The notes under the pieces are model-generated. The model saw only the letters and a program-made list of their open reading frames with translations, was not told the origin of the DNA and did not search any database. From NCBI RefSeq assembly GCF_025995175.1, contig NZ_BAPV01000004.1:62001-126000 (forward strand): DNA of 64,000 nucleotides, given 5' to 3'. The stretch is from Asaia krungthepensis NRIC 0535 (GTDB lineage: Bacteria > Pseudomonadota > Alphaproteobacteria > Acetobacterales > Acetobacteraceae). A program made the position numbers and the translations under genes. Below are positions 39,479 through 43,207 of this stretch, in pieces. How positions within the stretch are numbered: position 1 is the stretch's first letter; every line of letters begins with the position of its first letter.

Positions 39479-40873
39479 TCAGATGATCCCGTCACGATCG
39501 GCACCACCATGCCCGGCGATGACGCCGCTGATGATCTGCAATGCGGCAGCGAGTTCCGCGCGGCTCCCGGGCGCGCCCAGACACAGCCGAAGCCCGGTAT
39601 CGGCCTCGCGCGAAACACCAGAGGCTTCAGGAGGCGTCACCTCCACCCCTGCGCGCAACAGCCGCGCCGTCACGCGTTCGGCTTCGATCGCGGGCATGGG
39701 CAGGAAAGCATGGGGCGAGTGTGCGGCACCGGGCCTAACCACAAGAGCGCCAAGTTCGGTCTGTGTCATGATCCAGCGCGCGGAGGCCTCATGCTGGATC
39801 GCGCTTGCCATGGCCTCAATGCGGCCATCCTCGACCCATTGCATGAAAATCAGCGCCCCAAGGGCGGGCGGACAATAACCGAAAGCCCTGATCCCTCGAA
39901 TCAGACGCTCCCTCGGTAATTCCGGAGGCAATGCCAGAAACGCCAACCGGAGGCCCGGGCAGATTCCCTTGGACAGGCTGACGAGATAGAGCGTTCGTTC
40001 CGGGGCGAAGCTGGCAATTTGCGGTGGGCGCAAAGAATAGGCGTAATACGCATCGTCCTCGAGGATCAGAAGATCCCGCGCGCGTGCGACCCGCGCGATA
40101 TCCTGACGACGCTGAGCTGACATTGTCCGTGTGGTCGGGTTATGGAGCGTGGGAAGGGTGAACAGCATCCGGCTGCCCGTCTCGGCCGCTGCGCGATCGA
40201 GAGCATCGGGACGTATACCCTCCTCATCCATCGCGACCCCATGCAGCCTGAGCCCCAGATGCTCCGCCGCCATGCGCGCGCCGTAGAATGTGGTCGACTC
40301 ACACAGAACCGTATCACCCGGCCCGCAAAAGGATGAAAACGCCAGCGCAATGCCGTGCTGCCCCCCATTGCACTGGATCAGGTTTTCCGCGGCTACATCG
40401 AGACCATAACTGTCAGCGATCCAACGCGCTGCGGCGTGCCTCACAGGAGCCAGGCCGGGACCCTGAATGTAATGCAGCGCCGGGTCGAGCGCGCCACGCT
40501 TCGTGAGCTGAGACAACGCAAGATCGAGCTCGTGCATCAAAGGCACGGGCGGTGGCGTGTTGCACCGTAGATCAATGATCCCGGCCCGCCCCCCGGCGCC
40601 GCGCTCGAGGGCAGGCACATCCGGGACAGGAGAGGACGCCCCCCTGACGAAAGACCCCCGACCGACATGCGCCACCAGAAGGCCGCGCCGCTCGGCTTCG
40701 GCATAGGCCCGGGTGACGCTCCCACTGCTGACACCGAGGCGAAATGCCAGATCGCGCTGAGGTGGCAGGCGTGCCCCCGCAGCGAGCGCCCCGCGCCTGA
40801 CGTCGGCGGCAATCGCATGGACCAGCCGCTCGTAGAAAGGTGCCGGACCGGCTTCGATCTCAGGATGCCACAT
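39479..40873 (-). CDS. MocR-type regulator: GntR DNA-binding domain fused to an aminotransferase-like domain
   Basis: A 464-residue PLP-binding transcription factor. The N-terminal winged helix is visible as FYERLVHAIAADVRRGALAAGARLPPQRDLAFRLGVSSGSVTRAY (about 13-60, quoted in part). A linker leads to a fold-type I aminotransferase domain with the PLP lysine in LYLVSLSKGICPGLRLAFL. The ATG at 40873 has AAGGGTG nine bases upstream; TTG and GTG codons further upstream are alternatives. It is divergent from urcA-phzF, and the 120-base gap holds repeated operator-like elements. The effector is unknown; MocR proteins typically sense PLP, amino acids or related amines. Confidence 0.92.
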   Translation of the reverse strand: MWHPEIEAGPAPFYERLVHAIAADVRRGALAAGARLPPQRDLAFRLGVSSGSVTRAYAEAERRGLLVAHVGRGSFVRGASSPVPDVPALERGAGGRAGIIDLRCNTPPPVPLMHELDLALSQLTKRGALDPALHYIQGPGLAPVRHAAARWIADSYGLDVAAENLIQCNGGQHGIALAFSSFCGPGDTVLCESTTFYGARMAAEHLGLRLHGVAMDEEGIRPDALDRAAAETGSRMLFTLPTLHNPTTRTMSAQRRQDIARVARARDLLILEDDAYYAYSLRPPQIASFAPERTLYLVSLSKGICPGLRLAFLALPPELPRERLIRGIRAFGYCPPALGALIFMQWVEDGRIEAMASAIQHEASARWIMTQTELGALVVRPGAAHSPHAFLPMPAIEAERVTARLLRAGVEVTPPEASGVSREADTGLRLCLGAPGSRAELAAALQIISGVIAGHGGADRDGII

Positions 40874-40887
40874 CTGGGGATTCACCC

Positions 40888-40898
40888 TTACATTGTAA
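40888..40898. promoter_or_regulatory. Palindrome TTACATTGTAA in the MocR leader
   Basis: Perfect 5-1-5 inverted repeat 15 bases upstream of the MocR start codon. It contains ATTGTA, the same hexamer that recurs on both strands at 40945, 40968 and 40978. A candidate autoregulatory operator. Confidence 0.5.
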
Positions 40899-40907
40899 TG
40901 GTTCAAT

Positions 40908-40936
40908 ATACCGATTGCGATTCATAAAATACCGAT
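40908..40936. promoter_or_regulatory. Direct repeat ATACCGAT, 21-bp spacing, candidate MocR operator
   Basis: ATACCGAT occurs at 40908-40915 and 40929-40936, so the repeats are exactly two helical turns apart on the same DNA face. I recall that the MocR protein GabR of Bacillus binds direct repeats containing ATACCA. The placement between the divergent genes fits a MocR binding site. Confidence 0.6.
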
Positions 40937-40963
40937 CAAAATAATACAATCGAATCGATTCGT

Positions 40964-40983
40964 TATAATTGTATCAGTACAAT
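40964..40983 (+). promoter_or_regulatory. urcA-phzF promoter -10 box with overlapping inverted repeat
   Basis: A perfect -10 hexamer TATAAT lies at 40964-40969. It overlaps the inverted repeat ATTGTA-TCAG-TACAAT (40968-40983), which would cover the start site. Ribosome site GAGGAA follows at 40985-40990 and the ATG is at 40994. No good -35 is seen, which suits an activator-dependent or tightly regulated promoter. The perfect palindrome cgaatcgattcg lies just upstream (40951-40962). Confidence 0.6.
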
Positions 40984-40993
40984 AGAGGAAATC

Positions 40994-41431
40994 ATGAGAC
41001 ATCCCTGTCGAGCGAGCAGCGCCTTACGCTGCCCGCCTGAACCCAGCCCCTTACCTTCAGGGTTTGGTGCCATACTCGGCGCCGTGACGGCATTGCTGAT
41101 CGCAAGCATGCTCGCGGGTCTTCCCACGCCCTGCCATGCAGCCACGGAGGATGGCGATGACCAGATCGAACGGATTCCCGTCGCCTATGAGGCCTCCGAT
41201 CTCACCGATCCGGTACGCGCCAGGAAGTTGCTCTGGCGTCTGGATAGCGCCTCGCTGCAGGCATGCGGTGCCATGGATGGCATGTCGCTCCCGATGCAGA
41301 AAGCGGTCGAACGCTCGGCCTGCCACCGCACAAGCCTGACCGCTTCGGTCTCTTCGCTCCATAGCCCGATATTGTGGCAACTGGCCCGGGACATGATCGG
41401 GACGCGCGGCGTCACACAGGAGGCACCCTGA
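40994..41431 (+). CDS. UrcA family exported protein
   Basis: A 145-residue protein with a long signal peptide (hydrophobic LGAVTALLIASMLAGLPTPCHA) after a Cys/Pro-rich start. The mature part fits the UrcA family: IPVAYEASDLTDPVRARKLLWRLDSASLQACG, then a second Cys in ERSACHRTSLTASVSSLHSP (both quoted in part). The two cysteines would form a disulfide. UrcA proteins are periplasmic and of unknown function. A ribosome site GAGGAA precedes the ATG. The phzF gene starts two bases after its stop, so the two are one operon, divergent from the MocR gene. Confidence 0.85.
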   Translation: MRHPCRASSALRCPPEPSPLPSGFGAILGAVTALLIASMLAGLPTPCHAATEDGDDQIERIPVAYEASDLTDPVRARKLLWRLDSASLQACGAMDGMSLPMQKAVERSACHRTSLTASVSSLHSPILWQLARDMIGTRGVTQEAP

Positions 41432-41433
41432 TC

Positions 41434-42273
41434 ATGAAGCTCGCTTTCCATATGGTCGATGTCTTCGCGACTGGCATTTTCAACGGCAACCCATTGGCGG
41501 TTATCGTCGGCGCGGACACTGTCTCCGATGCACAAATGGCGGCCATCGCCAACTGGACCAATCTCAGCGAGACGAGTTTCCTGCTCGCGCCCCGATCGGA
41601 CCAAGCCGATTATCGTGTGCGAATCTTCACCCCGCATTCTGAATTGCCGTTCGCCGGGCATCCCACACTTGGCACAGCTCATGTCTGGCAATCGCTCCAT
41701 GGTGCGGCGAGCAGCGAGCGCATTGTCCAGGAATGCGCCGCGGGGCTCGTTTCCCTGCGCCAGACAAGCGGAGGACTGGCTTTCGCGGCACCGCCCATAC
41801 AGCGTTCCGGTCCAGCGAGTCCCGCCGAGCTTTCCCGGGCCCTTAACGCCCTCAGACTCCATCCAGACGATATTCTCGATGCGCGATGGGCCGATAACGG
41901 GCCGGGCTGGCTGGCTCTGCGCCTGCGTAGCGGTGCTCAGGTCCTCGCGGTGGAGCCGGATTGGGGCGCGCTGATCGGCCAGAAACTGGGAGTTGTCGGC
42001 GCCTGGGAGCCAGCCGAGCACCCGTATGGCGCGCATGTCGAGATCAGGGCTTTTGTCGGGGAGGACCCTGGGTATGAGGATCCTGTCACAGGAAGCCTGA
42101 ACGCGAGCATCGCCCAGTGGCTGATCGAGGAGGGGCTGGCCCCCGACAGCTATATCGCTGTGCAAGGAACGGTTTTGGGCCGCGCCGGTGCTGTCTCTGT
42201 CGAAAAACGGGGGGAAACAATCTGGGTAGGTGGACGCACGACAACCCGGGTGACGGGCACGATCGACCTGTGA
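41434..42273 (+). CDS. PhzF family isomerase/epimerase
   Basis: A 279-residue protein of the diaminopimelate-epimerase fold. It has the PhzF signature VDVFATGIFNGNPLAVIV, the catalytic Glu in NLSETSFLL, FTPHSELPFAGHPTLGTAHVW and EDPVTGSLNASIAQWL. The ribosome site AGGAGG is at 41419-41424. Family members isomerise trans-2,3-dihydro-3-hydroxyanthranilate or act on unknown small molecules. There are no other phenazine genes here, so the substrate is open. Co-transcription with urcA and likely control by the MocR regulator suggest a small amine or amino acid pathway. Confidence 0.9.
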   Translation: MKLAFHMVDVFATGIFNGNPLAVIVGADTVSDAQMAAIANWTNLSETSFLLAPRSDQADYRVRIFTPHSELPFAGHPTLGTAHVWQSLHGAASSERIVQECAAGLVSLRQTSGGLAFAAPPIQRSGPASPAELSRALNALRLHPDDILDARWADNGPGWLALRLRSGAQVLAVEPDWGALIGQKLGVVGAWEPAEHPYGAHVEIRAFVGEDPGYEDPVTGSLNASIAQWLIEEGLAPDSYIAVQGTVLGRAGAVSVEKRGETIWVGGRTTTRVTGTIDL

Positions 42274-42333
42274 CAGGAGACGCCACGGCGCCGCTCCGGC
42301 TCGGCCTGTCCCGGGCGGCGGCGGACACCTGAC

Positions 42334-42389
42334 GGGTCAGCGGGTCAGCGGGTCAGCGGGTCAGCGGGTCAGCGGGTCAGCGGGTCAGC
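42334..42389. repeat. Seven tandem copies of an 8-bp unit at the eipB 3' end
   Basis: gggtcagc is repeated seven times without a mismatch between 42334 and 42389. It overlaps the 3' end of the minus-strand eipB gene: the stop TGA of that gene is formed inside the repeat and the last codons (Leu-Thr-Arg) come from it. Slippage would not change the protein, since the stop lies in the first units read. Confidence 0.95.
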
Positions 42390-43207
42390 GAACATGACGC
42401 TGCAGGCAGCGGGGTCAGGCTGTCAATCTGGCCCGACAAGACATAATCCCCGAAATCGATGAGAAGTTTATCCTCCACGCCGTTGGTCCAGAGACGATCA
42501 CTGTAGGTCGAGTCCGGCAGAAGGGTGGCATCACCGCCACCGAAGCTTGCAACCGATACGGGCACGGCCATGCCTCCTGCGAAAGCCGGGCTGTCGAATC
42601 CCGGCGTGGCAGGGGCGAGGGTGCCAAGCGTCACGTAATTGGGCGTTGACCCATCGGCGGATGCGCCGTCGAAAATCTGGCTTTGAAGATGCAAAGCCCC
42701 CTTACGGGCCGCCTCAAGCAGTGTCCCCGTAAACTGGACCGGAAAAACCGTTGCCGCCGGCAGGGTGATCGTTTTCGTGTCAGGCTTGGTGAAATGGACC
42801 ACCACCTGCCCATGACGTTGACGAATGGCCTCACCTGCCGTCTCGCTGGTCGTTTCCCCATCCTGGCTTTGCACCGTGCGAAAAAGGAAACGACGCCCGT
42901 TCTTGTCTTCCAGCGTAGCGGATTGATAGGTCACCACGCTCGTGCTGCCATCGCCGCTCATGATCTGGACTTCCAGCTTTTGGCTGGACGACCAGGAATC
43001 GCATGCATCGCGCAGCTGGTAGCTCGCCTTTCCTCCCGCTGCGACCAGCGAGCCTGCTTTGAGTCGGGCGAGGTTGAGCGTGTAGCTGATCTTGTGCGGT
43101 AGAAGCGCCCCCGCAACCGGCACGGCATCACGCCGCGGGGAAGCCGCGTGCGCGGGGAGTGCGGCAAGGCCGATGACCATAGCCGCAGCGAGGCGTGTCC
43201 GTTTCAC
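42377..43207 (-). CDS. eipB: EipB-like (DUF1849) periplasmic envelope protein
   Basis: A 276-residue exported protein with signal peptide RLAAAMVIGLAALPAHA. The DUF1849 pattern is visible: LLPHKISYTLNLARL, YQSATLEDKNGRRFLFRTV, FTKPDTKTITLPAATVFPVQFTGTLLEAARKG and IFDGAS. Cys69 and Cys272 match the conserved disulfide of Brucella EipB, where the protein supports envelope integrity. Its C-terminus (PAASCSLTR) runs into the 8-bp tandem repeat, which supplies the stop. It is convergent with phzF and lies downstream of aspS. Confidence 0.87.
   Translation of the reverse strand: MKRTRLAAAMVIGLAALPAHAASPRRDAVPVAGALLPHKISYTLNLARLKAGSLVAAGGKASYQLRDACDSWSSSQKLEVQIMSGDGSTSVVTYQSATLEDKNGRRFLFRTVQSQDGETTSETAGEAIRQRHGQVVVHFTKPDTKTITLPAATVFPVQFTGTLLEAARKGALHLQSQIFDGASADGSTPNYVTLGTLAPATPGFDSPAFAGGMAVPVSVASFGGGDATLLPDSTYSDRLWTNGVEDKLLIDFGDYVLSGQIDSLTPLPAASCSLTR

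Follow-up and report, generated by a model that had tools for sequence, protein, structure and literature searches.

A MocR-type regulator of Asaia krungthepensis NRIC 0535 probably operates as a dedicated, autoregulated and amine-responsive switch for the adjacent urcA and phzF genes, acting through two palindromes in the region that separates it from them. The locus lies in a window of 64,000 nucleotides, the whole stretch of DNA analyzed here, which is part of contig C4 of a 3.5-Mb genome. The gene order, the conserved palindrome pair, the active-site motifs of the PhzF protein and the predicted position of the PLP-lysine in the regulator are read from the sequence; binding, repression and PLP chemistry are proposed by extension from EnuR/EutR and other work on MocR regulators. 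No function is known for UrcA or for the majority of PhzF-like proteins, and few MocR regulators have a ligand assigned to them. The unit described here joins MocR, PhzF and UrcA with a defined, strongly conserved putative operator in culturable acetic acid bacteria, and a simple reporter would let the inducing compound be found, after which the action of PhzF and UrcA on that compound could be asked.

The mocR-urcA-phzF locus and its distribution

The regulator gene (mocR, 39479-40873, minus strand) encodes a GntR winged helix (Pfam GntR, 50 bits, residues 25-87) and a fold-type I aminotransferase-like domain (Aminotran_1_2, 80.3 bits, residues 138-459; both in the numbering of the 475-aa ORF), which is the architecture of the MocR subfamily. 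Its start is most likely the ATG at 40873, since the CCACAT start context is common to 21 of the 28 orthologs compared; a TTG further upstream, at 40906, is the alternative in the ORF list. When the protein is aligned with a solved aminotransferase, K302 (464-aa numbering) falls on the SK motif of the latter, which places it at the predicted conserved PLP-lysine position. Across a divergent intergenic region of 120 bp (40874-40993) lie, on the plus strand, a urcA-family gene (40994-41431) and, two bases after its stop codon, a phzF-family isomerase gene (41434-42273); together with the GntR-aminotransferase fusion, this is the gene content given in the initial annotation, and it was borne out by Pfam and NCBIfam. 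The urcA and phzF genes are also two bases apart or overlapping in the 5 Asaia and 5 Gluconobacter loci compared, with starts read by eye. No Rfam element reached the gathering score in the window. Beyond phzF, a perfect tandem array of CGGGTCAG (7.2 copies, 42333-42390) overlaps the 3' end of an EipB-like gene (42377-43207, minus strand).

The UrcA-family protein matches TIGR04433 at 36.6 bits against a cut-off of 25, and all 5 orthologs scanned also score above that cut-off; the family is recognized by NCBIfam only, with no Pfam match for the protein. An N-terminal hydrophobic segment is visible by eye, and C91 and C110 are invariant in 17 aligned sequences. The structural model (mean pLDDT 70.4), confident for about residues 61-140 only, predicts a helical core at high pLDDT, and a Foldseek search of the fold against the PDB returned nothing at E ≤ 0.001 (best E 2.5). 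A second UrcA-family gene of the genome (L107, 1318-1824; G000:C20:109085-109357; 37.8 bits) adjoins an ORF that by eye resembles a histidine kinase.

Membership of the PhzF family is indicated by matches to PF02567 (162 bits) and TIGR00654 (163.6 bits) and by intact Glu/His/Asp active-site motifs, which we take to be the catalytic residues: E46, H76 and D216 are invariant in all 24 rows aligned, comprising 23 MocR-linked proteins of acetic acid bacteria and the second PhzF of the same genome. The best-matching solved structure is 1ym5, at 123.4 bits. The gene for the second PhzF, 58% identical (L106, 4068-4895; G000:C61:211067-211888), lies in a 9-kb stretch that lacks the palindrome motif described below and adjoins ORFs named by eye as alcohol-dehydrogenase-like and dihydroxyacetone-kinase-like.

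Orthologs of mocR were found at E ≤ 1e-90 in 20 of 397 genomes of the family, representing 6 of 102 genera, and a scan of named genomes gave 18 mocR loci, 16 of them from acetic acid bacteria (Asaia, Swaminathania, Acidomonas, Gluconobacter, Acetobacter and Ameyamaea). Eight of the 20 genome-search matches are the same records as named loci and were therefore counted once; the 28 orthologs compared are the window locus, the 16 named loci and 11 loci from genus g67. The distribution is patchy: the search covered 8 other Asaia genomes, and in 4 of them (G001, G002, G003 and G005) it found no ortholog of this mocR at E ≤ 1e-90.

A urcA match occupies the divergent slot in 26 of the 28 loci (25 full-length and a partial ORF in G346) and is absent from it in G074 and G326. 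A phzF gene of at least 280 aa is present in 24 loci, three of which reach the end of the fetched stretch; it is absent at the Acidomonas and G374 loci and fragmentary in A. senegalensis and A. farinalis. Full-length urcA and phzF both stand beside mocR in 21 of the 28. From these counts we infer that the arrangement is conserved and that either output gene can be lost. The divergence of mocR from a urcA-phzF pair, which the initial annotation had noted in one genome and suggested searching for across the Acetobacteraceae, thus extends across the acetic acid bacteria, with adjacency kept in those 21 loci.

Two of the loci have unusual structures. In Asaia platycodi (L099), mocR gives two matches that overlap but are read in different frames (residues 1-317 and 302-464), which points to a frameshift or to a fault in the assembly. 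Downstream of urcA in Acetobacter farinalis (L095), the short phzF fragment is followed by ORFs rich in RFIPACAGN and VHPRMCGE repeats, which by appearance look like translated CRISPR repeats.

The palindrome pair and other intergenic elements

The presumed MocR operator consists of palindrome A on the mocR side (ATTGTAATGGTTCAAT, 40892-40907), with 9 of 10 arm bases, and palindrome B on the urcA side (ATTGTATCAGTACAAT, 40968-40983), with 10 of 10. Sites were defined as 16-bp ATTGT-N6-ACAAT matches with at least 9 of 10 arm bases, a motif chosen after the sequences had been seen. Both palindromes are present in all 28 orthologs (A with 9 of 10 arm bases in each, B with at least 9), spaced 75-78 bp from start to start (76 bp in the window), which argues for the symmetric operator region proposed in the initial annotation. 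Repeated boxes near the target promoter, as sought for a MocR regulator, appear in the alignment as conserved boxes. At the same threshold, the flanks of the 16 named loci (109,883 bases) contain 2 background matches and the window contains 1 more, and the motif was found at 0 of 7 other PhzF loci. Among 5000 dinucleotide shuffles of the 120-bp intergenic region, two sites at this threshold arose in 1; a single 16-bp palindrome is not rare, since a 16-mer with perfect 6-bp inverted arms arose in 360. Both palindromes persist at the loci with no phzF or only a fragment of it (Acidomonas, G374, A. senegalensis and A. farinalis) and at those that lack urcA (G074 and G326).

The 16-bp inverted repeat originally placed over the urcA start does exist, but it ends 10 bp before the urcA ATG (40994) and so belongs to the 5' leader. 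The four hexamers reported with it are all in place, TACAAT at 40945 and 40978 and ATTGTA at 40892 and 40968, and four or more such hexamers arose in 0 of the 5000 shuffles. When the whole 120-bp region was used as a DNA query, matches were obtained in 5 of 397 family genomes, which indicates that only the boxes, and not the entire intergenic region, are widely kept. A pattern search of the genome with one mismatch found the two known sites and two others, no more than the 5 matches of a control pattern, and the regulon therefore looks local.

Three further elements occupy the region. A GATTG box (40913-40917, plus strand) adjoins palindrome A, is marked by column conservation in the 28-row intergenic alignment and is possibly part of a three-box operator. 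Palindrome C (CGAATCGATTCG, 40951-40962), the perfect 12-bp palindrome of the initial annotation, is exact in 15 of the 28 orthologs (14 of the 16 named species and the window, and 0 of the 11 g67 genomes); it occurs just once, in exact form, in the 3.5-Mb genome and could be the site of a different regulator. The TATAAT box (40964-40969, plus strand) is likewise present, as had been reported, and is found in 4 of the 28 orthologs, which leaves it as a candidate -10 of the urcA promoter only; a promoter search gave one sigma-70-like match (9 of 12), which is not conserved.

Related MocR loci in other Alphaproteobacteria

MocR matches at E ≤ 1e-68 were found in 51 of 385 genomes of the class. 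We compared 36 distant loci, 34 from the genome searches and 2 from the named scan, which are the best-scoring loci and no random sample. Their divergent side holds DUF1127, which we take to be one family with COG5457, in 25 loci and PhzF in 20, with either in 29 and neither in 7; Pfam confirmed DUF1127 in 5 of 6 loci checked. UrcA was found in 0 of the 36 (flanks of 1.5 kb, or 3 kb for the two named loci). Under the strict test, neither of the two named loci has a site with 9 of 10 arm bases. Looser sites, TTGT-N6-8-ACAA, occur at the MocR start in 27 of the 36 loci and in none of the other 9, with 35 matches in 9,720 bases at MocR starts versus 9 in 150,856 bases outside. Related MocRs elsewhere in the Alphaproteobacteria adjoin DUF1127, PhzF or DMT genes, with similar sites.

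In a PhzF tree built by a quick method, a fully supported long branch sets 14 of the 15 distant MocR-linked rows apart, and G494 belongs to a third group, which also has a long branch. By this placement, the PhzF proteins encoded next to the acetic acid bacterial MocR are of a different subfamily from the DUF1127-linked PhzF proteins in the comparison. The tree left out 7 rows shorter than 180 aa (five of them distant and MocR-linked), G275 (a near copy of G244) and G374 (no phzF), and its label "unlinked" was not checked row by row, unl_L023 being the same gene as the MocR-linked dist_G046. In the MocR tree (quick method, midpoint root, G275 left out), all 27 rows from acetic acid bacteria fall into a single clade (support 100). 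The row nearest to this clade is the long-branched G494 (support 89), which groups with four plasmid MocRs that stand beside LysE, AraD1 or aldehyde dehydrogenase genes, and the midpoint root separates the DUF1127-linked MocRs from them; a long-branch warning applies to both trees, G494 included. This placement weakens the idea that UrcA replaced DUF1127 within one inherited unit, and it leaves the slot analogous, with inheritance not demonstrated. Taken with the PhzF subfamilies, it suggests that MocR and PhzF came together more than once, or that PhzF was swapped. At the G494 locus itself (L116), a LysE-like ORF, named by eye, lies between mocR and PhzF in the divergent unit, and a TTGT-N6-ACAA site is present.

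Models of regulation and relation to known systems

In the model that we favor, MocR would bind the two ATTGT-N6-ACAAT palindromes, of which one lies toward mocR and the other, 76 bp away, in the urcA leader, and binding would control both mocR itself and the compact urcA-phzF operon; the near-constant spacing would allow two dimers to cooperate. Most likely MocR would repress both transcripts without ligand, a sign borrowed from EnuR, and the location of palindrome B just before the urcA start also suggests repression. The regulator would let go once an amine or amino acid reacts with the bound PLP, the ligand being, by analogy, one that forms an aldimine with PLP. PhzF would probably isomerize or epimerize this compound or a relative, and UrcA would act in the periplasm.

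The initial annotation had raised the possibility of a small-molecule detoxification or utilization switch with an exported sensor or binding partner. More tentatively, the locus may be a two-compartment amine unit, in which the PLP-reactive amine sensed by MocR is remodeled by PhzF in the cytoplasm and an exported, disulfide-stabilized UrcA handles the periplasmic side, with PhzF proteins of two, perhaps three, separate subfamilies having become MocR neighbors. If this were true, PhzF-like isomerases would act on MocR ligands in general, and UrcA would gain a functional context besides the metal response.

The sign of control could also differ between the two transcripts. GabR is an activator, and its site consists of direct repeats. 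MocR might activate urcA-phzF and repress itself, binding both palindromes and perhaps looping the 76 bp (about seven helical turns); the near-constant spacing of 75-78 bp in all 28 orthologs would suit such an arrangement, and the activating MocR regulator TauR provides a precedent (PMC5320631). The position of palindrome B, 10 bp before the urcA start codon, seems more repressor-like, and we regard this reading as rather unlikely.

An improbable alternative is that the regulator is a true EnuR/EhuR with a retained ectoine operator, sensing ectoine breakdown products, and that urcA-phzF are recruited targets. EhuR (NF052286) is indeed the nearest NCBIfam model and the operator consensus is identical; yet the score is 337.6 bits against a curated cut-off of 480, the genome gave no match to eutD (TIGR02993) in a search that covers one family and gives weak sub-cut-off matches in all 14 control genomes, and the nearest rows of the MocR tree adjoin LysE, aldehyde dehydrogenase, AraD1 or PhzF genes. 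We consider it quite improbable that the adjacency is a relic, with MocR regulating itself alone and urcA-phzF as mere neighbors. Such a relic would be in keeping with the absence or fragmentation of phzF or urcA in 6 of the 28 loci and the partial urcA of a seventh (G346), but the urcA-side palindrome is conserved in all 28, and PhzF genes, mostly of the other subfamily, recur beside MocR genes in 20 of the 36 distant loci. Finally, the two copies of ATACCGAT (40908-40915 and 40929-40936, plus strand), which do lie exactly 21 bp apart as first described, were rejected as a highly improbable operator of the GabR style, since the pair occurs in 1 of 28 orthologs, that of this genome, and is missing from the other 27, including Asaia sp. 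W19 (MocR 91% identical), while the neighboring palindromes are conserved, so that the conservation test set in the initial annotation goes against the repeats and in favor of the palindromes, and since 994 of 5000 shuffles contain an exact 8-mer direct repeat of some kind, which makes the pair unremarkable.

The favored switch can be compared with known systems at the level of its proteins and of its regulation. The yeast protein of 1ym5 and E. coli YddE are near full-length family matches to the Asaia PhzF, for which no phenazine context was noticed in passing. Caulobacter UrcA, described in PMC8963506 as periplasmic and of unknown function, belongs to the TIGR04433 family that the Asaia protein matches above the cut-off; Caulobacter urcA differs in that it depends on the two-component system UzcRS and not on a MocR, and the passages of that article consulted mention no phzF alongside it.

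MocR regulons with PhzF (COG384), COG5457 and DMT transporters, including that of PdxQ, were predicted in 2016 by Suvorova and Rodionov (PMC5320631), and the DUF1127/PhzF/site pattern of the distant loci fits that work. The likeness lies in a MocR controlling a PhzF-family gene and in the same kind of comparative genomics, and the difference in the subfamily of the PhzF, which here is other than the DUF1127-linked ones compared. The main text of PMC5320631 has no match for urcA, Acetobacter or Gluconobacter, and UrcA as the output of a MocR unit was not found in open-licence PMC papers. The initial claim that a UrcA-PhzF output under MocR is undescribed appears to hold for UrcA and gives way for PhzF: MocR-PhzF control is a known theme, and the UrcA output appears new.

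EnuR/EutR, the MocR regulator of ectoine catabolism, corresponds to the NCBIfam model nearest to the Asaia MocR. Its published operator consensus, ATTGTnnnnnnACAAT, is of the ATTGT-N6-ACAAT type (PMC8739950), and the palindromes here, with 9 of 10 and 10 of 10 arm bases, are the same; two sites are present in each of the two species discussed there, as at the Asaia locus. The Asaia MocR differs in scoring below the EhuR cut-off, in the lack of a eutD match and in having urcA and phzF as neighbors, and may thus work like EnuR without being one.
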